Origin: Hydnum rufescens UP504 | Taxonomy: Eukaryota; Basidiomycota; Agaricomycetes; Cantharellales; Hydnaceae | Reading direction: 5' to 3' | Assembly: GCA_014904985.1 (NCBI GenBank) | Contig: MU128956.1 | Span: 124,001-188,000 of the forward strand | DNA: 64,000 bases | Shown here: in pieces, positions 9,661 through 47,056 of the stretch | Position numbering within the stretch: position 1 is the first letter of the stretch | Layout of the letters: each line of letters begins with the position of its first letter | Translations under genes and position numbers: made by a program | The notes under the pieces: model-generated | The model's database searches: none | Seen by the model: only the letters and a program-made list of their open reading frames with translations | Told to the model about the DNA's origin: nothing

Positions 9661-10617
9661 ATCATTTAGCCTCCCCCATGTTTTTATTCAGTGGGGTCAC
9701 GGGTTTTTGGTTGGCAGGTTTATGAATGGTGGTTGCAGGTGTTGGGACCAGGGGGAGGGGGACCCATTGGAGGTAGGTGTGGGCTGTGGGGTCAGAAGAA
9801 TACCTGGAATAAACACTACATTAGTGAAAAAAAAGAAAAGCCATGCAAAAGGAGCAGCCTGTGCTGCTCCTTTTGTGTGATTGTACTTGTAGCTTGAAAT
9901 ACATACCTTAAAAGTCACCACACCCACTGAAGCAGGTGTGGCTTGTACAGGTTCTTGGTGTTGTGTTGCTTTGTGTCTTCATTGTGTGGGTGGTTTATGT
10001 CATCTGCATGGGTCTCATTCAGTGCGGGGTCTTTGGCAGTTCATCATTCATGGGTTTTGTTTGGCAGGCTGTTGCTTTGGGGGGGGGGGGGGTTCATTTG
10101 GCCATTTGTTCTTGGTTGGTGGGTCTTTGTTTCATTTGTGGAAGTTCAGGCAATGATCTAGAAAAATCAATAGAATTAGTTAGAGATTGAAACCAGTGCA
10201 AAAAGAGCAGCACTGGCTGCTCTTTTTGCGCCGTTGGGGGTTACAAATGGTACTTACCTTAGATAGAACCACACACCCACTATGGCAGGTGTGTGGTTCA
10301 TTCGGTCACTCAGTGGGCACATTGTCATTTGTCATATTTGTCTGCTGCATTGCTGCTGGGGCCCTGGCTGGTTGTGCTCTTGTGGTTTTGCAGGTTTTCA
10401 CCTGGTGCCTCAGACCAGTTATGGCCTAGAATAATAGTAAAATACTCAAAGCAGTGCAAAAAGAGCAGCTTTTGCTGCTCTTTTTGCACCACTGTATGTA
10501 TAGAAATTAAAAATGAACTTACCATAAATTACCACACACCCACTGCAGTGGGTGTGTGGTTCATTTGGGGTGTTCCCAGTTTGTGGTTTATGCCTTGTTT
10601 CAGGTCCTTGTTTGGTG
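9661..10617 (-). mobile_element. Hairpin exon-intron array, left portion (three A/B units)
   Basis: Three B palindromes (about 9845-9877, 10198-10229, 10454-10489) alternate with three A palindromes (9916-9941, 10267-10298, 10531-10560). On the minus strand each A precedes a donor such as CTAAGGTAAGT, B follows within the putative intron, and the acceptor TTCTAG closes it. No terminal repeat is seen at the left edge, so the element is truncated, near the end of the phosphatase relic. The exon at the right edge is interrupted at 10617 by the Plavaka element and resumes at 16587. Exons carry stops in all frames, so I read this as non-coding. Confidence 0.5.
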
Positions 10618-13255: not shown

Positions 13256-16200
13256 ATGCCAAAATCTAAGGCAAGCAGGGTACTGGCATGCAAACCATGC
13301 CCATTCTGTGGAACTCCAGTCAGTGCATTAGGGGGGGGTGTCTCAAACTGCATCACTCGCACTGCCTCATGTTGCCAACAACTCCATGTGAGTACAAAAA
13401 GTGTGAGCTGGAATACAGTCTCCTCTGCGCAACCAAGCAGTGAAGGTCATATTGAAAGCACCTGCCCTGCTGTGGACACTAGTTTTGGACACAGCAGCCC
13501 TGAAATACATGGCAGTGAGCTCGACACCAACCCCTCTGACTCCAATTGATATGGAACACCCACCTCTCAGCTTGGGGCCAGTGTCAGTGAGGGTGTGCCC
13601 TCCAGTGGGTTCATCATTCATGAAAACAATGATGCCAGAGATGTCTTCCAGCAACCCCAAGCCACCCATTTTGAGCAACTCCACACTGACACAAACTCTG
13701 GGACTCCGTTGGTACCATGGACAAGTGAAGAGGAATGGGAATTGGCTGAATGGTTGATGTCAGCACATATTTCGCAAGCAATGATCAATTGGTTCTTGAA
13801 GTTGGCCTGGGTATGTCCTAAAAGTGATGACATCAGTAAGATTTTCTCACTGATTACATAGGTTCGCAAACACAGTGATCCCTTGAGCTTCTCATCAGCA
13901 AAAGAACTGCATGCGAAGGTCTGGACTATGCCAGGCAGTCTGCCATGACTCTCCACTGAGATTACACTCAAGGATGCTCCAAATGAGCCCCAACTGCTCT
14001 GCTATCATAATGTACCTGAATGCATCTCATTCCTGTTCCAAAATCTGTTGTTCAAAGATTCCATGGACTTTTCTCCAAAATCAGTGTATGAATCTGATGG
14101 TAAAACTCAGGTGTATCATGAAATGGCATCAGCAGAAGGTTGGCATGCAGAGCAGGTATGTCACTTAACTGTGTGGCACTTGCAGATTGAATTTACTTTG
14201 GAATTATAATAGGCAAAGCAACCAAAAGGAGCCACATTGCAGGCGGTTGTGATTGTGTTGGACAAGACTCACCTTACAAATTATTCCAGTGATAAATCAA
14301 TGCATGCTGTCTATATCACACTCAGTAATATTCATGATAATGTTCAGCGGAAGCCAAGCTGTGGTGCATGGATGTTACTTGCCCAGCTCCCAACTTCAAA
14401 ATTTGCGAATACAGTGTTCAACACATCTGGAACAAAAGTTGAAGCCCAGCAGATGCCTGGAATTCTCAAGCAACAGCTTTTCCACAAGGCTCTAAAGGCC
14501 ATACTGGAGCCATTAGCTGTCTGACATCATGTACTTCACAAAACCATAGGACCAGATGGATACATATGCAATACAGTTCCTATACTTATGGGATAGATCA
14601 CCAATCTAAAAGAGCAACTTGTCATTGCTGGAGTGACACAGTTTGCATGCCCAGTGACAATGGCTACCCATGTGGATCTGGGAAAATGGGTGCACTGTGA
14701 ACCACACACAGGGAAATCAACCCTTGATGCACTTGCCTTGGTACGGTCGAAATATCCATTGGCAACAATGTGGGAATTCGCATGCAAGGTGAAGAAACTA
14801 GGCACAGGATTGTCAGGGTGTGTTGAGCACCCATTCTGGGAGGATCTTGGTGTCAATCCCTGCAATTTCATCTGTCAGGATTTGCTACATGGTTGCCACA
14901 AATCCTTCTGGGACCATCCAGCCAAATGGCTCGCACATGTGATTGGAACCAAGGAACTTGACAATTGCTATATTGCCCAGCCCAAAGCTGGCTTCCGCCA
15001 CTTCAGTCATGGCATATCTAAAATATCACAAGTATCTGGCCAAGAACACTGTGACTTCCAAAAATCAATCTTACTGGTTATCATTGGTGTTGAAGACATT
15101 GACCCTCGAGTTGTACGCATGACATGAGCCTTCCTTGATTTCATCTACATGGCTCAGTATCCAGTCCAATCAGAAGACATGTTACATGAAATGCATATGC
15201 AACTTGATATTATCCACAATAATATCCAAGTTTTCATTGAGATTGGTGCATGGGGTGATATGGACCATCTCAACATCCTGAAGCTCTACAGCCTTCTGCA
15301 CTCTATTGACAATGCATGCTACAATGGTGTATCACTCAATTTCACAACAGAAACAGCTGAGTATCTTCATATTCCAATGTGCAAGGATCTATACAATGCA
15401 AGTAATTGATGTGAGTATGAGGTTCAAATGCTCTGCCTTCTTGACCTGCATGAAAAGGTGCAATTTCGCACTACATCCATGGCATGGGTACAAGAGCAGT
15501 CAAGCAATGACTGTGAGGATCAGGATGACTTGGTCAGTGATGGAGATCATTCAGACTCAGATAGTGAACACACCGGTGCCAATCATGCAAGAACTGATGC
15601 CCCAGCACCAACTCTGGGAAGCCACGCAATGTGACATGCTGGCCATATCTGGATAGCACAGTGAGGACGTGAGCACTAAGCAGCAATTCAATCAATCACC
15701 ACCGACTACGATACACCCGACCTTATATTGGCAATCTGCCACTTTGTTGTGAGTGGTGAGAGTAGTGCATCCACCGGTCATATGTGGTGGGATCACACAA
15801 TTAATTCATTACCCTCAATATTCACCACTCTCAAAATTTGGACATCCTTTCGCATTACTATACCTGGTATCAATGAATTCTATCCTACTGAAATCAAGAC
15901 TATCCATTGCAAACCCAAGGGTGTGACTGCTGCCCAGTTTGATCCCGTTCTAGTAATGGTGTATCCCACCACAGTTGGTATTCACAGTGCATATGCATTC
16001 CATTGATTAGAATACTAATTATCTAAAGATAGCAATAGATTTTATAGGGTTTCAGGTTGCAGAGTTATGTCTTGTTTTCTGACCCCAAAAGGATCCTGAC
16101 AATCCACATGCTGAGTGCCCTCTCTATGCTTATGTATTTTGGTACACCAAAATCCCATCAACACCAGTCAAAGACATCAAATTGTATCGTGTTTCAAAGG

Positions 16201-16586: not shown

Positions 16587-17340
16587 TGGGTTGCTGTTCC
16601 GGGGTTGTGTTTGGCCTGTGTCCATGTGGTGGTTTGTTGCATTGGGGAAGGGGGCTTGTTTGGCAGGTCTTTACTTTGTGGGTTCTGGTTCAAGTGATCA
16701 CCTGGGATAGAACATAAGATATTAGTTAAAGATTAAAACAAAAACCAGTGCAAAAAGTGCAGCATTTGTTGCACTTTTTGCACCATTGGGTGTACTGAAT
16801 TACTTACCTTACATAGAACCATGCACCTGCCATGGCGGGTGTATGGTTCATACAGCCACTCGTTGGCTGTGTTCTTGCCTACAGTCTTGTTGGTTGTGGT
16901 TTTGTTCATTGTTTTTGCCTTGCATGTGTCTGTTTGGGGTTTGGCCATTTGCATGCCTGTCATTGGGTGGGGTCCCATTTCATGCCCGGGATCAGGCCAT
17001 GATCTAAGAGAATAAATATTAGTTAGTAAAGAGATTTAAAGCAGTGCAAAAAGAGCAGCTTTTGCTGCTCTTTTTGTGCCATTGTATCTATTACAATGGA
17101 AAAACTTACCTTGTATGACCACACACCCACTGCCATGGGTGTGTGGTTGTTGGCTTGCCTGTTCAGTGTGTGGCTGCGTAGTTTTGGAGACATGAACACA
17201 ATGCTGGCAATTGCCAGAACCCAAAAAGCGCCCAAGTGCCAGTGCCACAAGGACAGTATGAATAATAGAAAGTACTATTTTTGGAAAGAAAAACTAAAAG
17301 AAGATGGTAATAACTAGGAGCCAAATTATCCAATGAATAA
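16587..17340 (-). mobile_element. Hairpin exon-intron array, right portion (two A/B units) with 5' region
   Basis: Continues the array interrupted at 10617. B at about 16747-16782 and 17044-17079, A at 16816-16847 and 17118-17147. The 16747 B stem reads AAAGTGCA against TGCACTTT, where most copies have AAAGAGCA and TGCTCTTT: both arms changed together. The segment 17150-17340 resembles the inner flanks of the large element's centre (22340-22560, and 22930-23075 in reverse), including GCTGGCAATTGCC. It is therefore probably the start region of a minus-strand transcript. Confidence 0.5.
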
Positions 17341-19959: not shown

Positions 19960-19967
19960 CCTTACAG

Positions 19968-20080
19968 CAACCTGGTCAGCCACAAATATACATCTAGTTA
20001 GATACAATGAGCCTTGTGTTTAAATAGTCTAACTAGATGTTTTTAGGCTGGGGCCCCTGGGGCTGGCTAACATTATTTGC
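19968..20080 (+). repeat. Left terminal inverted repeat of the hairpin element
   Basis: Order of blocks: CAACCTGGTCAGCCAC, ATCTAGTTAGATAC, GAGCCTTG, GTCTAACTAGATGTTTTT, GGGGCCCCTGGGG. The same order in reverse occurs at 25190-25292, and with changes at 28202 (reverse), 31468 and 33063. Confidence 0.5.
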
Positions 20081-20379
20081 GTGATTCAGGCAGGGGCCCC
20101 AGGGGCCCCTGCCTCTCACCTTAGACTGGGACTTAGAGATTCTCAGACAACAGTGGGCTACACAGGCTTATTGGGGATAATCACCATTATGTATTATGAT
20201 GCAGCAGGCCATATGGGCTTATCAGGGGTAGTTCCATTTATAATTATTTATTTATTATCACTATATTATACATGGGTGGGGTTTCATTCAGTGGCCCCAT
20301 TATTTTATTTATTGATTTATTTAAAAATTCAATTAATATACCACACAAATCAAAAAGAAAAAACAGTACTACTTGTAGC

Positions 20380-22335
20380 ACCACACCCCCACTTGGGCAG
20401 GTGTGTGGTACTGTCCATACAAATCAAAAAGAAGAAAAAAGTACTACTTAGTAGCACCACACACACACTTGGGTGGGTGTGTGGTACCATCCCTCAAAAT
20501 TTAAAAAAAAAAAAGGATTGAGTAGCACCACACACCCACTAGGGTGGGTGTGTGGTATGGGGGGCTGGGCTTGGCGATTCACTGTTGGGTGGGTCGTTGG
20601 GATGAGTTGCAGGTCACAGGTCGCAGCTTGTCGTTTCGGCGGCTTCAATTTGGATCCTAAAATAATAGCATACATTAGTAAAAAAAACATTGAAGTGATG
20701 CAAAGGAGCAGCTTGGGCTGCTCCTTTTGTGTTGCTGTACATATAGAAATCTGAAAAAAAACCTACACACCCACCAAAGTGGGTGTGTGGTCCTGATTTT
20801 GTGCCCTGGTTGCATGCTTTGTACTTGGTTTTGCATATGGGGGGGTGTCCATTGGGGTGGGTCATAGTTTTGGGAGCCTTGATTTGATTCCTAGAATGAT
20901 AGTGTATGTTAGTAAAAAATCTTCCAAGTGATGCAAAAGGAGCAGCTTGTGCTGCTCCTTTTGCATTGCTGTATGCATAGACATAAATAAAAAAACCTTG
21001 TAGTACCACACACCCACTGAAGTGGGTGTGTGGTACTCATTTGTACCATGGCAGTGCATTTGGTTTTGCATACGGGGGCTGGTTGTCATTTGGGCGAGTG
21101 GTTTGTTTGGCAGGTTTCCATTCTCGTGTGTTTTTTCAGCAGGCATCACGGGTCTTGATTGGAGGTTGGTTGGTTGGGTTGTAGGACCAGAGAAAACCTA
21201 GGAATAAATAATGGGTTAGTAAAAGAGAAGAAAAAAACAAAAGCCACACAAAAGGAGCAGCATACACTGCTCCTTTTGTGTGATTGTACTTACCCTGAAT
21301 TACCACACACCTGCTTCGGTGGGTGTGTGGTTCATCTGGGGTCCTGTGGCATTGTGTCATCTGTTCCCATTCCCAGGTTTTGTTTGGCAGGTTGTGTTGT
21401 CATTTCTGAGTGGGGGGGTTTGTTTGGCCAGCTCAGGCAAAAACCTAGAATAATATGATAAATGAAGTGTTAGTTAAAAATTAAAATGAAAAATGAATGC
21501 AAAAAGAGCAGCCCTTGCTGCTCTTTTTGCATCATTGGGGGGTGTACTACATCACTTACCTTTTGTAGAACCACACCTGCTATCGCGGGTGTGTGGTTTG
21601 TGTGGTTCGGTGTCCCTTATTTGATGCCTCGCCATTCACGGGCTTCGCTTTGTGAGCAGGTGATCACTCAAGGGAGGGGGAGGTTGCTTCATGGGCCTTC
21701 ATTTGTGGTGGCGATAGCCTAGAAGACTGCATTATTAGTCAAAAAATTAAAACCAGTGCAAAAAGAGCAGCAGGTGCTGCTCTTTTTGCGCTGTTGTGGG
21801 TACCCAATGTTACTCACCTTGTATAGAACCACACACCTGCCATAGTGGGTGTGTGGTTCTACAGGTTTGGGGTCAGCTTGTGTCTTCATTTGGCCTGTTG
21901 TCATTCATTGGTTTCATTTTGGGGGCCAGCCATCATTTTGGGGGTGATTCATTTCACTGATCTTCATTTGTGGCAGCCTAGAATAAAAGATGTATTAGTT
22001 AAATAATAATAACTGGTGCAAAAAGAGCAGCACTTGCTGCTCTTTTTGCACCATTGGGGGTGCACAAGGTAACTTACATTATATAGAACCACACACCTGC
22101 TTCAGTGGGTGTGTGGTTCCTGGGGCCTCCCATTGGGCAGTCTGTTGCTGGTTCTGGTTTGGCTCTTGCCATTCAGGTTCTCATCATGTGGCGACTAAAT
22201 AATAAAAGCTACATTAGTATAAGACTTCAAAACAGCACAAAAGAGTAGCTTTTGCTACTCTTTTTGTGCCCTTGTATCTACTGAAACAAAAACTCACCTT
22301 AGGACCACACACCTGCAGCAGCAGGTGTGTGGTCA
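20380..22335 (-). ncRNA. Minus-strand hairpin exon-intron array (left arm)
   Basis: Putative multi-exon non-coding transcript reading leftward. B palindromes lie near 20698, 20932, 21243, 21499, 21757, 22018 and 22236. A palindromes lie near 20760, 21003, 21302, 21570, 21828, 22088 and 22303, plus three closely packed A copies at about 20390, 20455 and 20526. On the minus strand each A is followed within about 15 nt by a donor (for example CTATACAAGGTGAGT at about 21815 and TAATGTAAGT at about 22075). Then come B, a TTAACTAATAC-type branch point and TTCTAG. Introns come out near 95-115 nt. Expression is inference; the signals are read directly. Confidence 0.5.
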
Positions 22336-23080
22336 TGTCTGTGCCTTTCTGGGCCGTTTGTTGGGTGTGGCTGTGTAGTTGCACAATTCAATGCTGGCAA
22401 TTGCCGGTCATTAAAAAGCACCCAAGTGTAGTGCTATGAGCAGAATACATATTAATAACAAGTATATAGACATAGAGTCAATACTATATAATACATATTT
22501 GTCCAAAAAACCAAAGATGATGATGATAATGAGTCAGAGCTCAAATAAGGCACAATATGCCTAATTGCAGAGTGGATTGAGCCACTTCTATGGGTCATAA
22601 TTGACCCAAATATAGATATAATGATGGTATATGTGAATCCCTACATGGGCGACCAGGTATATTGGACGATTCTGGTGTTTTTCAATTTTTCACACCTTCA
22701 ATTCCCTAAATAGGGAATTGAAGGCGTGAGAAATTGAAAAATGGAGGGAGCACCTGAAATAATTAATCGCCCATGTAGGGTACATATATCCCACCAATAT
22801 ATTTAAATTTGAGCCAATTCTGAACCATAGAAATCGCCCAATCCACTTTGCAATGTTCATGCCTTAGTGAACTCTGACTCATTGTCATGGTCTCTTTATT
22901 TCCTTTCAATAAATACTAATTATATGGTATCTATTTTACATTTAGTCACTTGCTACTAATTCATACTGTAGTCATGGCGCTGGACACTTGGGTGCATTTT
23001 GGATGGCAGCAATTGCTGGTGTTGAGTTGTGTTTCTTTCTTGCAACCACCACCTAACAGGGAAACCACCCAAAGAAGGAA
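22336..23080. promoter_or_regulatory. Central palindrome and probable divergent start region
   Basis: A near-perfect inverted repeat centred at about 22710 (TTCAATTCCCTA against TAGGGAATTGAA, with CAATTTTTCACACC outside) sits at the mirror axis of the array. Further out the arms still match: GGCGACCAGG..ATATTGG against CCAATATA..CGCCC, GAGTCAGAG against CTCTGACTC, and GGCAATTGCC-type blocks at about 22400 and 23008. Splice-signal polarity points away from this centre on both sides, so transcription starting here in both directions is the simplest reading. Confidence 0.5.
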
Positions 23081-25125
23081 AGATGACCACACACCTGCTG
23101 ATGTGGGTGTGTGGTCACAAGGTGAGTTTTTTTATTGTAGTAGATACAACAGTACAAAAAGAGCAGTGAAAGCTGCTCTTTTTGCGCTGCTTTGAACTTG
23201 TTTACTAACACAGCACCTTTCATATAGATCATGACCTGGTCTTAGGGATCAGCCAAATGATGAGGGCCCGACCTACCAGGGCCCCATTAGGACCATGCCA
23301 GGCAACAATGTGACAAGGAAGACCGCGACAATGTGACGAACACAATGAACATGATGAATGCAATGAATGCAATGAATGTGACGAATGCAATGGATGTGAC
23401 CAACGTGACCATGACAGACAACAATGTGCCCAGTGAATGGCTGCACGAACCCCACACCCACTATGGCAGGTGTGTGGTTTTCTATAAGATGAGTCCCCCC
23501 CTCCAATATACCCAGCTGTGCAAAAAGAGCAGTGAAAGCTGCTCTTTTTGCACTGGTTTTAATTTCTCACTAATGCAAATATTTTTTCTAGGTTATCCCC
23601 TACCCTACAACCAATGAAATGAAGAACCACCCAACAAGAATGAGCGGAATGGATCCCCACCAAACAATCACCTGCCAAATGAACCCTGAACCCCCCAAAA
23701 CGACAGCCCATGACATGAATGCATGCCAAAAGCCACACGCCAAACGAAAACCATGTGAGTGAAGAAGGATCACCCCACAGCAAAGACACAAAATGATGTG
23801 GAGCCAACAAGTGGCCCCAGGAACCACACACCCACTGTGGCGGGTGTGTGGTACTTCAAGATAAGTTTTTATTGTTTTTTATTTTATTTTTATTTTTGTG
23901 CCACCAGAAGAGCAGTGTAAGCTGCTCTTCTTGCAATGCTTTAATATTTAACTAACCTGTTCATTTTTCTAGATCTTGAACTTGAACCCTGCGACACCAA
24001 ACCCACAGAGTGAAACCTGAGATGCCAAACCTGCTGAACAAAGGCCTGCGATGCCAAACCTGCCAAATGGAGGTCTGTGATGCTGAACCCGCTGAACAAA
24101 GGCCTGCCCCCATGAATGAAACTGCGAAATGACCAATGACCAACATGAACCCGTGAACTGGGCTGCACAGGAAAATAGGGAGCCACACACCCACTGCGGC
24201 GGGTGTGTGGTACTCCAAGATGAGTTTTTATTGTTTATTTTTTATTATTTTTGTGGTGCAAGAAGAGCAGCATAAGCTGCTCTTCTTGCCATGCTTTAAT
24301 GTTTAACTAACACCCTTATTTTTCTAGATCTTGAACCCCCCACAAACCCCCGACACCAAACCCGCAACCTGAAACCCCGTGAACTGAAGCCCATGGCCTG
24401 AAGCCCCGCAACCCCAAACTTACCAAGTGAAACCAAACCCTGTGAATGAAACTGCGAACGTGCAAGTACCACACCTGCTGCGGCAGGTGTGTGGTATTAT
24501 ATAAGGTGAGCCCCCACCCCCAGTAGCTACACCCACGCAAAAAGAGCAGCAAAAGCTGCTCTTTTTGCATGGTTTTTAATCTCTAACTAACTTAAAAGTT
24601 TATTTTGTAGGTCTCAACATCCCTGGCAAACGAATACTGAGGCAAAACCCCTGCCCCCCCCCTTTTCGACACCTGAATGATGGCCACCCATACGAACCCC
24701 CATAAGTATGAGTGAGAGTACACAGCCCCAGTACCCCACACTGCTGCAGCAGGTGTGGGGTACTCCAAGGTATTTTTTATTTCTTATTTTGATTCCTTGT
24801 TCTTGTGGCGCAAAAAGAGCAGCATAAGCTGCTCTTTTTGCACTGCATTCATGTTTAACTAATTCATTAATTAGTTCTCTAGATATTGGACCAGAGCCCA
24901 CACAAACCCCCAACCACAGACCCACTGAACAACACACCATGAACAAAAACCAGGAATGAAACCACAAAGGCCCGCATGAATGAAAACCGTGAGCAACACC
25001 CCCTTGAGGGATCACCCAAATGGAACCCAGGACCCAACTGGTGTGAATTCCAGGTAACTATTTTTTCTTTAGCTACACTTGCACAAGAAGAGCAGCCTCT
25101 GGCTGCTCTTCTTGGGCACAGGGTG
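23080..25125 (+). ncRNA. Plus-strand hairpin exon-intron array (right arm)
   Basis: Mirror of the left arm. A near 23083, 23450, 23822, 24183, 24468 and 24732; B near 23153, 23517, 23897, 24256, 24535, 24810 and 25081. Each A precedes a donor-like site: AAGGTGAGTTTT at 23117, AAGATGAGT at about 23488 and 24217, AAGATAAGT at about 23857, AAGGTGAGC at about 24503, AAGGTATTT at about 24766. Acceptors follow B: TTTCTAGATCTTG near 23970 and 24325, TTTTTTCTAGG near 23590, TTTTGTAGG near 24608, each with CTAAC or CTAAT upstream. Exon 1 could begin MALDTWVHFGW at 22974, but the frame stops in exon 2, so a long protein is unlikely. Confidence 0.5.
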
Positions 25126-25184
25126 AGCCTATGGATGTATATACTAATATAATACTAATAATAATAATAAATATATAAATTAAT

Positions 25185-25292
25185 AATCTGGCAGGGGCCC
25201 CTGGGGGCCCCCGGTAAAAACATCTAGTTAGATATAATAAATGCAAGGCTCATTATATCTAATATGATGCAGAAAAGTGGCTGACCTGCCTG
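25185..25292 (-). repeat. Right terminal inverted repeat of the hairpin element
   Basis: Contains GGGGCCCCTGGGGGCCCC, AAAAACATCTAGTTAGATA, CAAGGCTCATTATATCTAA and GTGGCTGACCTGCCTG before the CCTTACAG duplication. It is complementary to the left end with about 75-80 percent agreement by eye. Confidence 0.5.
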
Positions 25293-25300
25293 CCTTACAG

Positions 25301-28011
25301 TGTGGTATTTGTGGGACAGCTCCCCCTAGTATTAATGGATCTAGACAGGCCAACCAGATAGACTAGTAGAAGAATAGACACAGAGGCAGAGGTTTCACAG
25401 TTTCTCACTAGGTGATGAAGATCTGGGCAAAAGAGTATTGTTGATTCTCTGGAATCTGCCATATATACATGACTTTTGAGTCTGAACTAAATTACATAAT
25501 ATACTATATTACAGTGCCCCCCAGTTTGGACTCCAAAAGTCTCAACTGAACACCTGGGCATAAGAAGGTGGATAAAGCAGAAGGAATGTGGAAATTTTAG
25601 AGAAAAGCAAAGAAAGGATTCAGTGAGGGTTTATAATCCAGTTCCAAGCTTTGGACTTTTAAAACAATGACTTGTCACCTTTGAATCTGGGAAGAAGAAA
25701 ACAACCAAAAGAAAGTGGCAGGGAAGAGGGAGGGAAACCACAGAAGAGGAAGAGGGAGAGTTGTGGCCTTATCCAAATGTCTTCAAGCCTCTAGGATCCT
25801 TCAATATCTTGGCCTGCCCCCCAGGCTTGATGGCATTGGATAGTGTTGGGTAAGACACCAAAGACTGGGTGGGTGGGTGGGCAAAGTCTTTGGTGGGACT
25901 AAGGATTGCCATTAGCCAGCAGGCTGTAATGTCCCACAGCCTATATGTAGAGGAAGGCTGAGCAGGGGGAGGCCAAACCCTGGAAGAGCATCAGGGCAAG
26001 ACAAGGCCACAAGGTGGACTGAGCCACAGGGAAGGATCAGGCCACAGGGAAGGGCAAGGCCACAGGGACATGTTTCTGGGGTTTGGTGGGTGGAATATGA
26101 TTGGAAGGGGGATAATGGAGAGTAGGGGTTTGGGGGTGTCCATTGGGCCATTTGGGAGTGATTTGGAATAGGGGTAGACCTGGGAAAAGAGATCTAGAGG
26201 AGGGATTTTGAAATTCATGGACTGAAGCACTAGCTTGACAGTCCAAGAATTGGGGATGGCCAATAGTGGAGAAAAAATAAGACAGGAAAAGACTATCTTT
26301 CACTTTTGGAATGAGAAAACCCATTAAAACTTGGTAGAGATGGAAAGGGAATGGGATTTGAGGCAAAGGGAGGAGAGGTGGTGGAGGGAATGTTCAACAT
26401 TGCTCCAATGGCTGCACCAAAGCCTTCGCCTGCATGGATATATGTGGAGATGAAGCAGATGTACCCATTAAAATTAAAATCAAGTAAATTGGCCAGAATT
26501 GAGGAAGATATGGCCAAACTGGTGGGGAGTCCAAAGGAGGATGATGTGAGGAAAGGATCCCACTATTCTGCAATGGGGCTCTAAATTCCAAGGTATGAAT
26601 GGATTATGGATGGTCTTGATCTACTGCTTCCATGAAAATTTAAACCATCCAAATCCATTTGGAATTGAGGGAGATACAAGCAAATTGGCAGGGGGCATCC
26701 AGTGTGCATAAATGGGGAGAAGAGTGTCCCTTTACTCCATAATGGCTGAGCCAAAATCTCCAAACTCAACAGATTGTGGAAAACTCAGATTATATGTATC
26801 CATTATATCTGGGATCATATAGCTTTGTCATGAATTGGAAGAGATATGGGGGAATGAGTGCCAGGAGGAGACCCATTTAAAGATGCTACTGCCAAGCTTG
26901 CAATACCAATCTCATCAAGCTGACATTATGCTTGATGCAGAGATGGAAAGCATAGATTTCTGTGGAGTATAATTAAATGCCTATAGGTGGAAAACTCAGG
27001 GAGAATTGAAGGAAGGAGTGTATGGGGACCCAAAGGTTTGCCAGGGGGGATGATTACAGTAGGAGGAATATGAACAAATTGGAAGCCTTAGAGGTGTGCT
27101 CCATAGCTTTAGGCCCATTAGGAGTGTGTTGTTACATCAGGTAATTTATCCCTCAAGGCAGAGGTCCCATTTCATTCCAGGATTAGGTGATTCAGGCTCT
27201 CCAGAGTGCACTATGCAACTTTTCCGCATTTGCTTCTGGAATTATGTAATCCAGACTTGGCAATTTGCGTGCCCACAATGCGGGAGCTCTGCCACATTCA
27301 GTCACATGACCAAGCTCTGGCAAGTTGCATGCCCACACTGTGGGAGCTCTGGCATCTTGAGGCCATGTGATCAAGCTTTGGCAGTTTGCATGCCCACACT
27401 GCAGGAGCTCTGGCCACATTCAGTCACATGACCAAGCCTTGGCAACTTGTGTGTGCCTGCACTGTGGGAGCTCTGGCATCTTGGGGCCATGTGATCAAGC
27501 TTCAGCAGTTTGTGTGCCTGCACTGCAGGAGCTCTGGCATCCTGAGGTCACATGAATCAAGTGGTCATGTGATATGAATTCAATCCCACTGCAGCGAGGC
27601 TTGCTCATGAAGTACAAGGCCTGTGGAGTGTGATCCTCATAAAACCAGGAGGGCTGGTTGGAAAGATATAGACAGTAGATTTCTGTTGAATGTACAATTA
27701 TGGTGGAGGGGGGAATTGTGCCCATGTACAAGGGGAAGAGGAGGGGGTGTAGGGAATTCCAGTCAAATGACAAGTCCTCCTACAATATCCAGCCAATTAT
27801 CTTGAAAGTGGGGGCTAGAGAAAGGCCTAGTATTGATGGCTACTAGACAGGCCAAGCAGATAGCAAGACAGAAGCAGAGTAGAGACAGAGGTTCATGGTT
27901 TCTCACTAGGTGATGAAGATCCAGGCAAAGGTTTTCTATTGATTCCCTGGAATCTGCCATATGTACATGACTTTTGAGTCCTAACTTAATTACATAATAC
28001 ACTATATTACA
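25301..28011. mobile_element. Degenerate LTR-retrotransposon-like element without coding capacity
   Basis: Direct repeats at about 25310-25513 and 27805-28011 share CTAGTATT.ATGG, CTAGACAGGCCAA, TTTCTCACTAGGTGATGAAGA, TGGAATCTGCCATAT and ACTATATTACA. A purine tract AAGGGGAAGAGGAGGGGG directly precedes TGTAGGG at 27747, as expected left of a 3' LTR. The interior has no gag or pol frame. The 5' boundary is uncertain because the hairpin element may have inserted in or beside the left LTR. A large non-autonomous retroelement is my best reading. Confidence 0.5.
27244..27560 (+). repeat. About five tandem repeats of roughly 62 bp
   Basis: Each unit contains TTGGCA.TTTGC, TGCCCACACTG, GGGAGCTCTGGC and then either CACATTCAGTCACATGACCAA or ATCTTGAGGCCATGTGATCAA. 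The last part alternates between units, giving a higher-order dimer of about 124 bp. It lies inside the retroelement-like interior. Confidence 0.5.
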
Positions 28012-28202
28012 AGAAGAGCAGCCACAGGCTGCTCTTCTTGGGTGTATGGGTGAGCCTATCAATGCATATAGAAATCATAATATAATAATAATAATAATAA
28101 ACAATCAAATTGCCAGGGGCCCCTGGGGGCCTCCACATGTAAAGACCTAGTTAAATACAATGCTCACTATACCTAATATGATGCGGAAAAGTGACCAGGC
28201 TG
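28012..28202. mobile_element. Right-end fragment of a second hairpin element
   Basis: Repeats 25083-25292 in order: AGAAGAGCAGC...GCTGCTCTTCTTGGG, a run of AATAATAATAAT, GGGGCCCCTGGGGGCC, CTAGTTAAATACAATG, CTAATATGATGC.GAAAAGTG and the terminus GACCAGGCTG at 28202. It begins abruptly inside the B palindrome where the retroelement-like repeat ends. AGAGTATA follows, but I found no partner copy of that 8-mer at a matching left end. Confidence 0.5.
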
Positions 28203-28258
28203 AGAGTATATAAATGCAAGGCTCATAATATCTAACTAGATAGACATTTTTGGGTGAC

Positions 28259-28913
28259 TAGTGCTCCTCACAGATCGGATCGGATGTGGATCAGATGGCA
28301 TCCATTCAGATTGAGGCCTCCCAAGGGGGGGATCTGAATCCACAGATCGAAATCCGTCAATCTGCGGATTTCAATATAAAGGCCATAGCCATGGACAACC
28401 AAGCAACAGGGGGACAAACCTTTTTTGGAGATATCACTGGAGCCTTTCAGCTGGGCTTCCCCACACTGAAGACATGTGTAACAACTCACAAGTACAATAA
28501 TGATGTTCAACTGGGACTAAAAATTGACAAAGGGCCTCATACTAGGACCCCCACAAGCTCTGGGTGAGGGGGGGTGAAACCCACCACATGTCTCTATTAC
28601 CATAAAGAGTAATTTCCCACATCCCAGAATTAGCCGCGTCAATGTTTGCATACTATATCTCAAGTCTAGGGACTCTAGGCTGCATCAGGGTGCAAAGCAC
28701 ACCTATTCTGTATCAGTTACAGGTAATTTAATTGCATTTTTATAATGTTTGAAGCTGATTTATGATCCAAATCCCTGCCTGTGGCCAAGATCTGCAGATT
28801 TTTGTCAGATTACCATCCTCGGATGGAGGCCTGCCCAATGGGGGATCTGGATCCAAGCCCATCCAAGGATCTGCGGATCCAATCCGCAGAGATCCGATCT
28901 GTGAGGAGCCCTA
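28259..28913. mobile_element. hAT-like non-autonomous element, 655 bp
   Basis: Inverted ends TAGTGCTCCTCACAGATC and TAGGGCTCCTCACAGATC are flanked by the exact 8-bp direct repeat TGGGTGAC (28251-28258 and 28914-28921). Subterminal GGATCTGCGGAT and GGATCTGGATCC words add further inverted symmetry. No coding. A TAGGG start and 8-bp duplication are typical of hAT elements. Confidence 0.5.
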
Positions 28914-31467: not shown

Positions 31468-33062
31468 CAGCATAGTCAGCCAATTATCTGTATCTAATTA
31501 GATGCTTCAAGGGCAATATTTATTACATACTCTAACTAGATATCAGACCCTGGGGCCCCTGGGGCCCCAGCTATAATATTATTTACATCAGTTGACCTGG
31601 TGGGCTCACCCATGCACCTAAGAGTAGCCTGTGTGGCTGCTTTTCTTGCACAATTGGTGGTGCATTTGGGATCAGGTGATGTGTGTTGCACAATCTAGAA
31701 TAGGACAAATATATATTAGAAGTGATGCAAAAAGGGCAGCTTGTGCTGCCCTTTTTGCACCACTTACGCATAGAAAATTAGATAATAATAAAAACATACC
31801 TTTTAGTACCACACACCTGCTCCAGCGGGTGTGTGGTACCACATTTTGTCGTTCACAAGGACAGTGGGGTCTATATAGGCTCATGCCTGGTTTGTCATGT
31901 GGGGGGTCATATGGGGTTTGGTTTGATGTCAATACATGGGTGCAGGGGTTCTTGTTGCTGGAGGGTTCAGGTGATGGTGCATTTGGGCTTGGGTGATGTT
32001 GGTTGCACAATCTAGAATAGAAGATATATATGTTAGAAGTGACACAAAAAGGGCTGCTTGCACTGCCCTTTTTGCATCACTTGTGCATAAAAGATTAGAT
32101 AAAAAAAACATACCTTTTAGTACCACACCCACTGGAGTGGGTGTGTGGCACTGTGTTTTGTTGTTCATGTAGACAGTGAGGTCCATATGGGCAGGTGCCC
32201 AGTTTGGGTTTGGTTCAGTGTCAATACACAGGTGTGGGGGTTCTTGTCGCTGGGGGGTTCAGGTGGTGGTGTGTTCGGGCTTGGGTGATGTTGGTTGTGT
32301 GATCTAGAATAGAAGAAATATATGTTATGCAAAAAGGGCAGCTTGTGCTGCCCTTTTTGCATCACTTACACATGAAAAATTAGATTAAAAAGAAACATAC
32401 CTTTTAGTACCACACACCCACTCCAGCAGGCATGTGGTACTCATATTGGGTCCCTCATGTTGATGAGGGGGTTTGTATGGGCTCATGCCTGGTTTTTCAT
32501 ATGGGGGTCACACACAGTTTTGTTTGAATTGATACACAGGTGTGGGGGGTGATACCGCAGTCTCATGTGGGGGTTTAGGTACACCTAGAGTTTTTAAAAA
32601 AATATGTTAGTACTTGAGGATGAAAATCAGCACAAAAAGAGCAGCTTTCACTGCTCTCTTTGTGCCACTGTATCTACTTCAACAAAAAACTCACCTACAC
32701 ATCTGCAGTAGTGGGTGCATGGTACCTCACATTGCATCATTCATGTGGATGGCAGGGTCTGTATGGCCACATGGGTCCTCATCATTTGGGGATTGGTATT
32801 TCGTTCAGGGGCTCAGGTGTCTGTCACACAATCTAGAATAGAATGTTATAAATTCAAAAAGTGACACAAAAAGGGCAGCTTGCACTGCCCTTTTTGCATC
32901 ACTTATATGCATAGAAAATTAGATTTTAAAAAACATACCTTTTTGAACAGTGGGGTTCATAAGGGCTCATGCCTGGTTTTTTGTACAGGGGTTCACATGG
33001 CATTCAGTTCAGTGTCAGAACACCTGGAATTTGAGAAAAATATGTAAATAGCACAAAAAGAG
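31468..33062 (-). mobile_element. Hairpin exon-intron element with left terminus, truncated by KDZ insertion
   Basis: The left end CAGCATAGTCAGCCAATTAT is followed by ATCTAATTAGATGC, TCTAACTAGATAT and GGGGCCCCTGGGGCCCC. B palindromes lie near 31727, 32042, 32334, 32632 and 32864, with A near 31807, 32122, 32407 and 32697. Here most B stems read GGGCAGC against GCTGCCC, another paired change. Donors on the minus strand are GGTATGT (for example near 31796) and acceptors ATTCTAG (near 31693 and 32010). The last B palindrome is cut after GCACAAAAAGAGCAG at 33065, where the KDZ-associated terminus starts. Confidence 0.5.
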
Positions 33063-33679
33063 CAGGCTGGTCAGCCAATTATCAGTATCTAATTAGATAC
33101 TTTGATGGTTGCATTTATATGCTCTAATTAGATATACAGCCCATGGGGCCCCTGGTGGCCCCTGTGGGCTAACTTGGATGGGCTCAGGGGGGCTCAAGTA
33201 CTGATCCAGGGGCCCCTCAGCACTGCCTCCAAAGGCCTCATTTCAAACCCAAGTATTTTCTAAGTTCAGCTAGGGGCCCCCCACAATTAACTTAATGGTT
33301 TCAGTTTCTGTATTATTTTTGCTAAGTACATATGTAGATAACATGGACTTATTCTTCATCACTACTAGTCTCACTTCCCATATCATCTGAATGACCCTCA
33401 TGAAGGAGGTCTGTAGCTGCAAGTAGGACTGGGTCAGCAATAACTGGCCGAGGCTACAGCTCAAATTCTTCATCATCATCTGAGCTATCCACCTCCCCTT
33501 CTCCAGGGCCCACTGTCCATTTGTCTGACCCTGGCAACTTTGGGATTGCTGCTTGTTCAGCTAAGGACCCTGCCAACTTGGACAGGGTGGGATGGGCACC
33601 CTGAAATCAAGCAGAGCCCTGGTCTCACTAGTCAAGGTTCTGCCACCTTGTCGAGGGAAATCAGCCCAAGAGATGCCAG

Positions 33680-33905: not shown

Positions 33906-36659
33906 GGCTAATGCATCAATGGAGCATCCCCACCTCTTGCCCAAATCTATAAGCCACTGAGCATGTTCCTGCACGAAGAACTGGAGGTCAGCATCCTCTG
34001 CAGGTAGACTAATTAGCACACCCTTCTGCCAGATATCACCCCCTTACCTTTGGAAGCCTGTAAAACAGTGATCAATGCAGCCAATTCATCATTGAACCAA
34101 TGCTGCAAAGAGGACCATTCACGTTCACAGAGATATAGTTCATCATGGCAATTCATGATTTCTTGAACAATTTGGATCCCATTTTGGACATCCTCATCCC
34201 CTAGCCAAGGAGGGACCTGTCCACCAAATTCATCATCAGCAAGTCCAATATCTTGCCAGATATCATTGTCCACATCAAGACTAAAAAGACCCTTCATCTC
34301 AATGGGAGGAGGGATGACTGCGTTACAGGGAATCCCATGCTGTCCATGAAGCTTGATCATACTGAGTCAGCACTTATTGTAGTCCATAACAAGGTTCTTG
34401 ATTGACCAATACCACCATTTCAATGCTTTATTCGTGCGTTCCACAGTACTGTGATCTATCATCAAGGATAATAATGTTAATATGATATAATACGAGTTAA
34501 ACTCCAACTATTAATAACTCACCTAAGGCTTTGCTCCTGAAAGCACCAGTGACATTATGTGCCTTGAAATTCCTCTGGCATGCCTTGGCAAGAATGTGTG
34601 CTTTAAGCGCACACATATTAAGTTGGTGTTCAAACCATGGGTGATCCTTCATTTTCTTGAGGTTGTCATATGATACCAGGTCTCCAAGCTTGAGGATGGC
34701 AGTTAAATCATCCTCTTGCTTCAACAAGCATGAGACAACATTCTCTTGTTCAGCAAGGGCAGATGTAATCTCCCCAACCTCATTCCGAGTTGCAATGGTG
34801 TCAGACACTGGTATGGCAATGAGTTGCTTCTGGAGGGCCTCAACAAGATCCCGAGCTGCATCAAGGTGTTGATGGACAGCCAGGATCTTCTCAACAGCAA
34901 GGAATCCCTTTTTCTTTGATTGTTGCTTGAGAGGTTGGCTCTGGTAGGCTTGCTGTTCTGCAAATTGAGACTGCAGGAACTCGTCGCTGAGTGGGATTCT
35001 GGCTCTCTTCTCCTGAGCAATTATGAGGCGAGCCTTTGTGGCTTTCACATGCTTCTCCAACCAGACACCTGCCTGTTGCATCTTCAAGTGGTCCAGATGT
35101 TCAATTTGGAGATCCAAAACAAACAAATGTCGATGGAATCCGGTTACATGGAGATTTGGAATGAGGCGCCAAAGATCATTCCAAAGGCATTCACAACCCT
35201 CTCCATCAGTGAGGCCCCAGACACCCCCCTTCTGAGGATTGTACCATAGCTGGCACACCCACTGATGGCAATATGCATGAAACACACTTATTCCAAACAC
35301 AATCTGGGGTATCCACCGAGGCAACAGATTCCACTTAAGTATGCTGCAATGAATCTGGCAGCCAATATTGTACAGGATACCAACTCACCAGTGTGTGGGA
35401 AGCTCAGCCATGATCATGTCAATGAGAGCCAATGCGTAGAATTGCTGTTCACTGAGAGTCCACATATTTTCCCACATGACCACATACACCTGCCATCACA
35501 CCAGTGTCTGAGAAGCACTCTCCAGGAGTCTTTACCCTGCCACCACCCGCAGCAACAAAGGATTCACCACAGATATTTAGCAACAAATTTGGGACATGTA
35601 GCCCAGCCTCAATAATGTCATCATCAGCATCTGGGCCATCCAGGGAATATTCTCCCTTCTTCAACATTCACCTAGCTGGATTGCCAGGACAGGCTTCTTC
35701 AACCCTTGCTTTCCAGATCTCCAGAAAACTTCAGGGCAATTTGTGGGTTCCAGGTGGAACAATGCAAGGGTCCTGAATGCCTGGTTGCTTTTTGTGGCCT
35801 GGCTGCTGATCATAGTCTTTGTTCCTCCTGATGGCGAAGCAGGCATCAAGGCATAAGAAAAAGTCGGGCCTGCAAAAGATGTCACTAAATTAGCAAGAGA
35901 CATGAGGATAAATCACAAAATACTCACAGTTTACCCCCTCCTGATACATCACCTCCAAAGCACAATGGACACCGAGAACGAAGGTAATCAGACAGTACAG
36001 AATGGGTGTTAGAACGAGTATGGAGGTCGGGGTTGGGCACAGGTGGAGCAATTGCATGAGACCAAGAAGAATTCTCTGTGGTGGAAGTAGAGGGCTGGCG
36101 AACAGACCAACCATCAGGACTCAGCACACTGATGTACAAACGATTCGTTATAGGGGTGGAGTCATCAATTATGGGTAACATTATTGTTTCTGGAGGAATA
36201 TCACCCCAATCGGCAGGGTCTTGCAAGAGGACTACATGCCGTGCCACACTGATCTGTTTATCCATCTCGGCAGTAACAACGCATACCAGGACCTGGTATT
36301 GGCCTAAGGCAGACACAAATCGTTGGTGGAGCAAGTCCTGTGCTTCGAATACATGGCCTCACCTTGCCAAAAATGAGGTCAGGGTGTCTGCCCATGCTGT
36401 CTCATTGGGAGCCAAGTGTACAAACAACGTCAACACAAACTCCAGCATGTCGAGGCTGACAGCAAGAGCTGGATACACTGGTGAGCAGGGGAACAAACCC
36501 TGCTTTACCAATTGGACAGGTGTGGGGGTGCATGGACATATGCATAGTTGCATGTAGTCAAGGCCTAGATGGACAATTATCAGTTTCTGGACCAAGATCA
36601 AACCAAGCATGTACTCACGATCTGTCAGGGTAACACTGCCGTCGAAGCCACAAACAGAA

Positions 36660-41227: not shown

Positions 41228-42470
41228 GTTTCTGGTTAACAACAATGGCATTGTCTGGGGACGTGCCCAGTGTCTTCGAAATCAGAACACCTTTACAAGC
41301 ATCACTTCATAGAGAACTATGTCTCGGAAAATGGAACCGATCCAATGACTGGGGAAAGGCCCATGGAAGAGGATTTAATCCCAATCAAAACCAGTAAGCT
41401 GTCAGGGTTTGTCCCTTACTCCGGTCCACTCTGGTCCACTCCGGATCACTCCAGTCCTTGTCCACCCACCTCCAGTCCAGTTCTCTGCTTAGTTCCTTCG
41501 CCCAAGTCCACTTTGCTTCCGGCTTGATTCCAGTTTGACTCCAATCCAACCCTATCTTGGTTTCATTTCCCTTTCATTTCCCATTGCTTCCGGTTTGTCC
41601 CCTGGCCAAGTTCCTGTTCCTGTTCCTGTTCCTGTCCCCCTTGTAACCACCCACAGTTTAGCAATCACTCCCCCATAGTATAGTCATCATGTATAAGTAG
41701 TCTGAGAGCGAAGTCCAGAGACCCCAGCTTTGGTCTCTCAGGATTTCTGCTGTTACTCCGGACTACAGCTCCGAGTATTATCCAGTTGACTCCATGAGCT
41801 TAAGGACTGTGCTCATTTCCACCTAGTCCCTTCTGGGCTGCTGGACCACTCCTCCAACATCCCTAACCTCCTTATCTCATTCTTGCCCGGATTCTTGCAG
41901 ACTTAGCCGGACTTACACCAGACTTAGCTGGAATTATTTGTGTTTACATTTGTTTGGTGCCCTTGTCACAGCGTGGCCCTGACATAAGCCTTCAGTGGAC
42001 TGATCTCCTCAAACTGGCCAGGCTCATATTGCCACATGGATAGATTCTCAGACTGTGCCCCAACACCCAGCCACTCTCACCTCAATCCTGGTTATCCCCC
42101 CAAATCCCCATTGTATCTTCGAAATTAGGACACCTTTACGAGTGTCACTTGATAGAGAAATATATCTTGGAAAATGGAACCAATCCAATCACTGGGGAAG
42201 ACTCACAGAAGAGGATTTAATCCAAATAAAAACCAGTAAGCCTTCAGTGGACTCATCTCTTCAAACTGGTCAGGCTTATATTGCTGGATGGATAGATTCT
42301 CAGGCTGTGTCCCCATGTCCAGCAACTCTGACCTCAATCCCAGTCATCCTTCACACAGTCCAAAATGGATGGGATGCCTCGTCCTGGAGCAATATTCACC
42401 AAGAACTCAGGAACTCATTATATCAGTACAATGCCATGTCCCAAGTCACTGCTCACTTGTTATTTTAAGG
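41228..42470 (+). pseudogene. Two tandem fragments of a Prp19/Pso4-type U-box gene
   Basis: Copy 1 reads LSGDVP, then after a one-base frame change VSSKSEHLYKHHFIENYV, SENGTDPMTGERPMEEDL and IPIKTSK. This is the U-box start of the splicing-associated ubiquitin ligase Prp19. Copy 2, from about 42117, reads the same region in broken frames (EEDLIQIKTSKPSVD) and continues to SIPVILHTVQNGWDA, the conserved segment after the U-box, then HQELRNSLYQYNAMSQV. With the LTR and its duplication removed the copies are about 252 bp apart. They are relics of a host gene carried among repeats; the functional gene must lie elsewhere. Confidence 0.5.
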
Positions 42471-44369: not shown

Positions 44370-44864
44370 AGGGTTCATGGCCCAACTCATGGGTCTGGTC
44401 AGACCCATGGTCTAGAGTCAGACCCATGGGTCTAGAGGTCAAAACCCATGGTCTAGAGGTCAAACCCATGGGTCTAGGGGTCAAACCCATGGGTCTAGGG
44501 TCAGACCCATGGGTCTAGGTCAAACCCATGGGTTTGGGGGTCAAACCCATGGGTCTAGGGCCAAACTCATGAGTTTGATGGTCCACCTCATGGGTCTGAG
44601 GATCTAACTCATGGGTATGAGGTCTAACTCATGAGTCCAGGGCTCAAACCCATGGGTCTGGGTCAAACTCATGGGTCTGGAGGTCAAACTCATGGCTCTA
44701 GGGGTCAAACCCATGGGTCTAATGCTCTAACTCATGGTCAGCAGGTCCCACCCATGGGTGGAGTGGCCCAGCCCATGAGTTTTATTGCCAATACCCTGCC
44801 CTGACCAAGCCAAAACCATGGTTTAGTGCTGTCCCCTCATGGGTCAATATTTGTCCAACCCATG
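44370..44864 (+). repeat. Minisatellite with palindromic ACCCATGGGT core
   Basis: About 20 units of roughly 22-24 bp, each with GGTCAAACCCATGGGTCTAG or a variant. Variants such as ACTCATGAGT keep the palindrome by paired changes. Most units keep an NcoI-type CCATGG. The second array is at 47700-48196. Confidence 0.5.
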
Positions 44865-45460: not shown

Positions 45461-47056
45461 TGATGTAGTTCTCACCATCTCTCTAACAGACCCGTACAAC
45501 CCCAGAGTGGACTAACCACTCCAAAGTGCAAAGATAAGTTTGAGGGATAACTGAGAGGTCGGAAGGAGAGTTGAAGTTGAGAAGATTTGCATCTGCATGT
45601 TCAATTCATCTTCTTGAGGATGCCGAATATTTGTGCCAAACATTATGGGACTTGATACTATTAGCCACATTAAAAAGGATATATTGTAATATTATTCCTA
45701 AGGCATTATCTATGAGTCTACAGCTGGATTTGATTGAACTCACTTGAGCCACTTTCTGAAAACTAATGTGGCTCTTCAGGCGATATAGTGTACTTATGGC
45801 AGACTAGATAATACATGTTTTCAGTATTCCATTTAAATCATATACATGTGCTGGTCCCACATGAATCCATGATGTGATTTGAACTCTGTATCTAAAATGC
45901 AACAGTCCATTTCATATATATATATGTTCACATGACTCCATGACACAATTTGAATGCTGTATCCAAAATTCCTTAAAATAACAAGTGAGCAGTGACTTGG
46001 GACTGGCTTGTACTGATATAATGAGTTCCTGAGTTCTTGGTGAATATTGCTCCAGGACGAGGGCATCCCATCCATTTTGGACTGTGTGAAGGATGACTGG
46101 ATTGAGGTCAGAGTTGCTGGACATGGGGACACACCTGAGAATCTATCCATCCAGCAATATAAGCCTGACCAGTTTGAAGAGATGAGTCCACTGAGGCTAC
46201 TGGTTTTTTTGGATTAATCCTCTCTGTGAGTCTTCCCCAGTGATTGGATTGGTTCCATTTTCCAGATGAATATTTCTCTATCAAGTGACCTCGTAAAGGT
46301 GTCTAATTTCGAAGATACAATGGGGATTTGGGGGGGGATAACCAGGATTGAGTGAGAGTGGCTGGGTTGTTGGGCCACAGTCTGAGAATCTATCCATGTG
46401 GCAATATGAGCCTGGCCAGTTTGAGGAGATCAGTCCACTGAAGGCTTTATGTCAGGGCACGCTGTGACAAGGGCCCAAACAAATGTAAACACAAATAATT
46501 CAAGCTAAGTCTGGTGTAAGTCCGGCTAAGTCTGCAAGAATCCGGGCAAGAATGAGATAAGGAGGTTAGGGATGTTGGAGGAGTGGTCCAGCAGCCCAGA
46601 AGGGACTAGGTGGAAATGAGCACGTCCTTAGCTCATGGAGTCAACTGGATAATACTCGGAGCTGTAGTCCGGAGTAACAGCAGAAATCCTGAGAGACAAA
46701 GCTGGGGTCTCTGGACTTCGCTCTCAGACTACTTATACATGATGACTATACTCTGGGGGAGTGATTGCTAAACTGGTGGGTGGTTACAAGGGGGACAGGA
46801 ACAGGAAAGGAACAGGAACTTGGCCAGGGGACAAACCGGAGCAATGGGAAATGAAAGGGAAATGAAACGCAAGATAGGGTTGGATTGGAGTCAAACTGGA
46901 ATCAAGCCGGAAGCAAAGTGGACTTGGGCGAAGGAACTAAGCAGAGAACTGGACCTGGAGGTGGGTGGACAAGGACTGGAGTGATCCGGAGTGGACCAGA
47001 GTGGACCGGAGTAAGGGACAAACCTGACAGCTTACTGGTTTTGGATTGGGATTAAA
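44861..47056 (-). repeat. Inverted duplication, right arm (2.2 kb)
   Basis: Reverse complement of 41374-43581. It includes the reversed solo LTR (46450-47029, then GCTTA at 47030-47034) and the reversed coding-like segment. The arm ends exactly at the run of N at 47057. Its one-base indels mostly break frames relative to the left arm. Confidence 0.5.
46450..47029 (-). mobile_element. Reversed copy of the 585-bp solo LTR
   Basis: Begins TGTCAGGGCACGC and ends AACCTGACA, the complement of 41400-41984 with several one-base differences. It is flanked by GCTTTA and GCTTA, the reversed TAAGC duplication. The LTR was therefore present before the segment was copied. Confidence 0.5.

Follow-up and report, generated by a model that had tools for sequence, protein, structure and literature searches.

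The question raised by this locus of Hydnum rufescens UP504 is what a 5.3 kb element that holds no protein gene, and is composed of hairpins alternating with intron-like units in mirror order, in fact encodes. The element lies in a stretch of 64,000 nucleotides, here called the window (contig MU128956.1, C48 in our scans, positions 124001-188000), and its parts are listed in Table 1. The best explanation is that it is a non-autonomous transposon of the Kyakuja-Dileera-Zisupton (KDZ) type, which probably encodes two divergent, multi-intron, structured noncoding RNAs whose transcription, splicing and function we infer from the sequence. An earlier note on this DNA had offered three readings: a transposon with a multi-intron noncoding RNA as its cargo, an introner of a new kind, or a self-folding satellite. 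The first is well supported by the finding of a mobile, multi-copy element with strand-specific intron signals, with poly(A)-type signals towards each outer end and with RNA-type tetraloops on the splicing strand, whereas the sampled sites gave the introner no support and the satellite fits poorly.

The element is mobile. As had been described, it has inverted ends and is flanked by a duplication of 8 bp, the sequence CCTTACAG being present exactly on both sides, and its 97-nt ends (19967-20063 and 25197-25293) show 74% complementarity. Genome scans of the 63.2-Mb assembly of H. rufescens UP504 (539 contigs) revealed 3,829 sites with hairpin A (CCACACACC...GGTGTGTGG) and 3,686 with hairpin B (AAAGAGCAGC...GCTGCTCTTT), with no match to the reversed-pattern control of either; at about 13 A and 13 B hairpins per element, the genome thus holds the equivalent of some 300 elements when fragments are counted in. 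A 15-base pattern of the terminal inverted repeat (TIR) matched 397 times on the forward and 392 times on the reverse strand, as against 0 and 5 times for its control, but no copy number can be derived from it, as the KDZ loci L048-L050 and L052 match it too. The nine arrays for which both ends were read proved to be TIR-bounded elements on eight contigs, six of them with exact 8-bp duplications (the window element, L044, L046, L051, L061 and L063) and one, L045, with seven of eight bases matching, while no duplication was found at L047 and L062; the arrays are thus neither confined to a single locus nor devoid of the duplication, and a self-folding satellite fits them poorly. L062 (G000:C16:257550-262550) is possibly a rearranged mirror copy: its two ends are of the same type, no matching duplication flanks it, and a centre core was not recognised in it. 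L051, L061 and L063 are young copies with exact duplications and a mutual identity of 95.5-96.9%, and the 266 substitutions among them comprise 197 CpG transitions, 42 transversions and 27 other transitions, a spectrum as expected for DNA that is methylated and was inserted recently. In the best-preserved A hairpins the sequence is ACCACACACCCGC-N4-GCGGGTGTGTGGT, and we take the TG and CA variants of A in the window copy to represent CpG decay. Fragments of the same array family were observed at 9766-10567 and 16708-17277 of the window, where they are 68-80% identical to parts of the element, and further pieces at 28009-28261 and 31468-32696, which include an end at 31468-31574 and several units, lie shortly before the KDZ-linked end at 33063.

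The ends connect the element to KDZ transposases (PF18758), matches to which were found in at least 154 places in the genome. L050 and L052 are 99.8% identical over 4.5 kb and each carries a KDZ gene inside a family-like end, which is about 78% identical over about 100 bp to the end of L051, and the L050 end shows 75% identity to that of the window element. Termini are thus shared with transposase-bearing elements of the same genome, though at one end only. A KDZ transposase was found neither in the element nor in the young copies tested, and a pattern scan of KDZ loci L048-L050 revealed no A or B hairpin; as no coding gene was found in it, the element can be counted among the KDZ transposons only as a non-autonomous member. 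The duplication size of 8 bp agrees with that of Zisupton, and the available extract of PMC12730594 gives 8-bp duplications for Zisupton and 7-bp duplications without TIRs for two Kyakuja families, a difference in duplication size and TIRs that leaves the sub-lineage within KDZ unsettled. Judging by these ends, a KDZ-superfamily transposase most likely moves the element, although 8-bp duplications alone do not exclude hAT, and on sequence grounds the transposon belongs with the non-autonomous KDZ-like elements.

The interior of the element is symmetrical, as the earlier note had recognised. With one mismatch per arm allowed, a scan of the element identified 13 palindromes of type A and 13 of type B, and repeat families D1-D3 comprise 11, 13 and 13 registered copies, in keeping with the roughly 14 units that had been proposed; these units flip at the central palindrome, the core of which, AATTCCCTAAATAGGGAATT, occupies 22700-22719. 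In L051, L061 and L063 the arms of the centre have an identity of 98-99% over 300 bp, and one of 0.65-0.84 in the other five copies (0.71 and 0.65 in the window); this palindromic centre is a putative promoter. The strand on which intron signals occur was determined from 36 sequences with exactly one centre match, which reduced to 21 non-redundant copies with 193 B hairpins after exclusion of those too near a locus end. A donor combined with a branch point and acceptor surrounds B in the outward direction in 148 of the 193 and in the inward direction in 4, the corresponding numbers being 182 versus 20 for the donor alone and 153 versus 8 for the branch point with acceptor alone. Canonical splice signals are hence largely confined to one strand, as a spliced noncoding RNA demands. 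The predicted introns measure 91-115 nt (four copies), and the donor follows the end of A after 6-12 nt, mostly 6, 8 or 10. Among the 169 family units with an A upstream, 48 donors are GTGAGT, 45 are GTAAGT and 26 take other forms, and in the window copy seven units have GTRAG[T/C] and three have AT, the outermost left units being degenerate. Poly(A)-type signals obey the same outward polarity: in eight of the nine full copies (all but L062, in which no centre core was found) the last 400 bp hold 66 outward and 3 inward AATAAA motifs, with outward motifs in 16 of 16 halves.

Comparison of the units within one element (6 units of L051, 10 of the window copy and 12 of L046) established which parts are conserved. 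Exon stretches of different units have an identity of 0.52-0.56 as compared to 0.49-0.52 when shuffled, and the spacer after the donor one of 0.40-0.52 as compared to 0.38-0.43, whereas identity reaches 0.79-0.84 for A, 0.74-0.96 for the donor and 0.86-0.91 for B; conserved as well are the nucleotides that connect A with the donor (0.60-0.65, shuffled 0.44) and the stretch from branch point to acceptor (0.63-0.69, shuffled 0.50-0.54). The module is alike and the exons are not, indicating that it is the module, rather than the exon, that has been preserved by selection or at least by common descent. The stems of the two hairpins are predicted at 13 and 14 bp, and their loops differ between strands. 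With the donor AGGTGAGT upstream, the B loop is a C-closed GNRA tetraloop on the donor strand at 396 sites as against 22 on the opposite strand. For A, 635 hairpins with intact stems before GTRAGT have UNCG on the donor strand in 150 cases and on the other strand in 33 (the chance level is 4 of 256 tetramers, or 1.6%), and the first 100 of these hairpins have YNCG in 33 cases versus 6. A comparison of G-U with A-C mismatches in A stems was uninformative, since the best-preserved stems hold CpG pairs which decay on both strands.

These features can be joined in a single scheme. From the palindromic central promoter, RNA would start outward on both strands, and each RNA would consist of short, mutually unrelated exons that end in A and of introns that hold B between donor and branch point. 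B would fold the intron compactly, which would suit efficient splicing, and the AATAAA clusters just inside each end would terminate the RNA by polyadenylation. In the mature RNA one A hairpin after another would be centred 20-27 nt upstream of an exon junction, and this RNA presumably serves the persistence of the element itself. The exon junction complex is located at -20 to -24 from the junction, and it is a speculative and rather doubtful idea that A, being centred at that site, keeps the complex off an RNA which would otherwise be a substrate for decay. By blocking the complex, A might then shield an untranslated RNA with many junctions from nonsense-mediated decay, and clean splicing might shield it from splicing-coupled RNA interference (RNAi). 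The position of the complex "upstream of exon-exon junctions" is stated in the available part of PMC7355637, and in the basidiomycete yeast Cryptococcus, according to an extract of PMC5851062, transposon RNAs that are spliced poorly are passed on to RNAi; by making the intron compact, the B hairpin would promote clean splicing. We would also entertain, tentatively, that the element represents a new class of selfish element, the sole product of which is a structured, heavily spliced noncoding RNA, and which by means of its introns and of an A at every exon-junction-complex site would mimic clean host RNA, evade both nonsense-mediated decay and splicing-coupled RNAi and so aid its own spread or that of its family.

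Several observations weigh against this scheme. Not every unit is an ordinary intron, given that 36 of the 169 units have AT donors (20 ATGAGT, 10 ATAAGT and 6 ATAAGC) and 14 have no recognised donor, and the statement that A always precedes a donor-like site was accordingly too strong. Within one subfamily (the window copy, L039, L041, L042, L045 and L046) several copies have their AT donors in corresponding units, with the acceptors kept, and such units are either dead or spliced unusually. The AATAAA motifs in the bodies of the elements, 64 inward and 3 outward over 29,993 bp, speak for the scheme, but a part of this inward excess is due to the pyrimidine-rich acceptors. It is likewise in favour of the scheme that across 173 distinct sequences the B stem has two-sided, pairing-preserving changes at pairs 4, 8, 10 and 12, more than in any of 200 shuffles, albeit shuffles that ignore relatedness. 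The 22 B hairpins with a flipped loop have GAAA read as TTTC on the donor strand (G000:C6:6456-6510 and C34:22360-22419 are examples), and at least some of these stand in contexts that are also listed with the loop unflipped, a sign that loop inversion may occur in DNA hairpins; by such flipping or DNA-level hairpin repair, stem pairing could be kept without selection. The strand bias of the loops may in part be inherited from the ancestral unit, and among 49 local A hairpins with intact stems UNCG is found outward in only 7 and inward in 2, with YNMG similarly weak at 8 versus 2. The exon junction complex idea draws on spacing, which may simply clear A from U1; of 130 units, 47 have the centre of A at -25, 37 at -21 and 24 at -23, and donors were sought within 22 nt of A, so that spacings beyond about -14 to -36 could not appear. 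Lastly, the second KDZ end was found neither in L050 and L052, whose common inner edge bears no TIR, nor for the KDZ element in the window, where an exact AAAAAGAG recurs at 36659 with no TIR before it, and a complete KDZ element is therefore not claimed.

Among the alternatives, a decayed protein gene has to be considered, in which the halves would derive from an intron-rich coding gene, such as an accessory gene, of an autonomous transposon, the splice sites being relics and the hairpins secondary repeats. Basidiomycete genes are intron-rich, canonical donors, branch points and acceptors persist, and the ends are common to KDZ elements. Nevertheless, even the young copies break the frame, as 49 of the 51 gap runs among L051, L061 and L063 are not multiples of three, and in L051, the one copy tested, two approximate spliced models covering both halves contained no long open reading frame (ORF), the longest one beginning with methionine being 115 aa, a length that is approximate since some modelled donors fell inside hairpin A. 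For the copies tested, a coding function of the halves was rejected on this broken frame together with the short ORFs of L051, which upholds the assertion of the earlier note that the element contains no protein gene. In addition, the same module is found in both halves in mirror order, the conservation of A and B but not of exons is the reverse of what a decaying coding gene would leave, and the KDZ loci L048-L050 lack both hairpins; we consider a decayed gene unlikely.

It is likewise improbable that the element is a small-RNA factory or decoy, in which hairpins, or lariats holding B, would feed or titrate Dicer and Argonaute and thereby protect the family from RNAi. The thousands of similar hairpins and the maintenance of their stems would suit such a role, but stems of 13 and 14 bp are short for Dicer, and a search of Rfam returned 13 weak matches up to an E value of 1, none of which reached the gathering score.

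The dense subterminal repeats of hAT and En/Spm elements are mirrored too, and palindromes are natural sites for proteins, so A and B could be DNA sites for transposase, with the halves as long terminal repeats and the splice-like motifs as coincidence. This would leave unexplained the strand bias of 148 versus 4 in 193, the pattern of AATAAA and the 396 versus 22 distribution of GNRA loops, and the hairpins were not found in the transposase-bearing loci L048-L050, all of which makes such binding sites a very unlikely account of the arrays. That the A-donor-B-acceptor module is itself mobile and creates new introns by insertion, in this case within exons of a transposon RNA, we regard as highly improbable, for although the modules are alike and the flanking exons unrelated, 8 of 8 sites sampled from the approximately 3,800 for having few listed neighbours are arrays with at least two A and two B within 1.3-2.0 kb, the module includes the exonic hairpin A, and the introners described in the available extract of PMC9860276 insert in host genes.

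Table 1. Features of the element and of the KDZ-linked end, in window coordinates.
Feature	Position	Strand	Basis or remark
Whole non-autonomous TIR element	19968..25292	.	5325 bp; TIRs, exact 8-bp duplication, multi-copy
Target-site duplication, left copy CCTTACAG	19960..19967	.	exact 8 bp
Target-site duplication, right copy CCTTACAG	25293..25300	.	exact 8 bp
Left terminal inverted repeat, CAACCTGGTCAGCCAC...	19968..20063	+	inverted repeat I1, 97 nt
Right terminal inverted repeat, minus-strand sequence CAGGCAGGTCAGCCAC...	25197..25292	-	inverted-repeat scan
AATAAA cluster, outer end of left unit	20247..20321	-	five, 285-354 bp from end, outward strand
AATAAA signals, outer end of right unit	25166..25241	+	127 and 57 bp from end, outward strand
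Three tandem A hairpins without introns, would-be last exon of left unit	20379..20557	-	tandem array, period 76
Central near-palindrome, proposed bidirectional promoter	22440..22990	.	arms 22564-22640, 22778-22854
Left array, exon-A hairpin/intron-B hairpin units	20526..22336	-	reads outward
Right array, exon-A hairpin/intron-B hairpin units	23085..25105	+	reads outward
Predicted intron with B hairpin	22195..22297	-	donor GTGAGT, acceptor TTTAG
Predicted intron	21978..22077	-	donor GTAAGT, branch CTAAT, acceptor TAG
Predicted intron	21719..21817	-	donor GTGAGT; acceptor CAG at 21727 or TAG at 21719
Predicted intron	21445..21559	-	donor GTAAGT, acceptor TAG
Predicted intron	21198..21293	-	donor GTAAGT, branch CTAAC, acceptor TAG
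Predicted intron	23122..23227	+	donor GTGAGT, branch CTAAC, acceptor TAG
Intron-like unit, AT replacing GT at donor	23489..23591	+	
Intron-like unit, AT replacing GT at donor	23861..23972	+	
Intron-like unit, AT replacing GT at donor	24220..24327	+	
Predicted intron	24506..24610	+	donor GTGAGC, branch CTAAC, acceptor TAG
TIR-type end adjoining KDZ transposase gene	33063..33164	+	87% identical over 103 bp to L051 end
KDZ transposase fragment (PF18758) adjoining 33063 end; probable cognate mobilising family	34497..35384	-	

Other features of the window comprise a Plavaka transposase fragment (PF18759) at 14597-15127 on the plus strand, and two arrays of the 21-bp unit GGTCAAACCCATGGGTCTAGA near two 10-bp arrays (41418-41457, 44397-44759, 46973-47012 and 47727-48093), the latter two, ACTCCGGTCC and GGACCGGAGT, being mutual reverse complements. 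A 403-aa open frame at 57927-59138 on the plus strand spans a 24-bp tandem repeat of 20 copies and has no Pfam match.

Read as a non-autonomous KDZ-type transposon that would encode structured noncoding RNAs, the element can be set beside several known systems. It resembles KDZ transposons in being TIR-bounded, in its 8-bp duplications and in having ends homologous to those beside KDZ genes, and differs from them in that it consists of 5 kb of noncoding, intron-patterned sequence in which no transposase was found. With miniature inverted-repeat transposable elements (MITEs) and long palindromic elements of the foldback type it shares the absence of a protein, the TIRs, a high copy number and inverted halves, but it is much longer than a typical MITE and has ordered intron modules, a candidate central promoter and clusters of AATAAA at its termini. 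Introners and introner-like elements, in so far as the extract of PMC9860276 describes them, are also repeated sequences with splice sites and a link to DNA transposons, whereas the modules here occur only in arrays at the sampled sites, with none seen in host genes, which were not surveyed. The sequence-similar stwintrons of Hypoxylaceae and Xylariaceae are families of similar fungal introns as well, yet according to the part of PMC12403724 available these are nested twin introns at new positions, as opposed to the single introns in noncoding arrays seen here. No published description of such a payload was found in the open-access literature, most subscription journals lying outside the scope of the search.

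The usual view of non-autonomous transposons is that they have hardly any content beyond their ends. In many copies of the present family, by contrast, a centre resembling a promoter has been retained together with introns, RNA hairpins and poly(A) signals, and no protein. If the element is transcribed and spliced, the RNA itself would be what selection kept, and the genome of H. rufescens UP504 would offer one hairpin-intron module in some 3,800 natural variants, with which one could test directly in a mushroom how RNA structure contributes to splicing, to the marking of junctions and to silencing.

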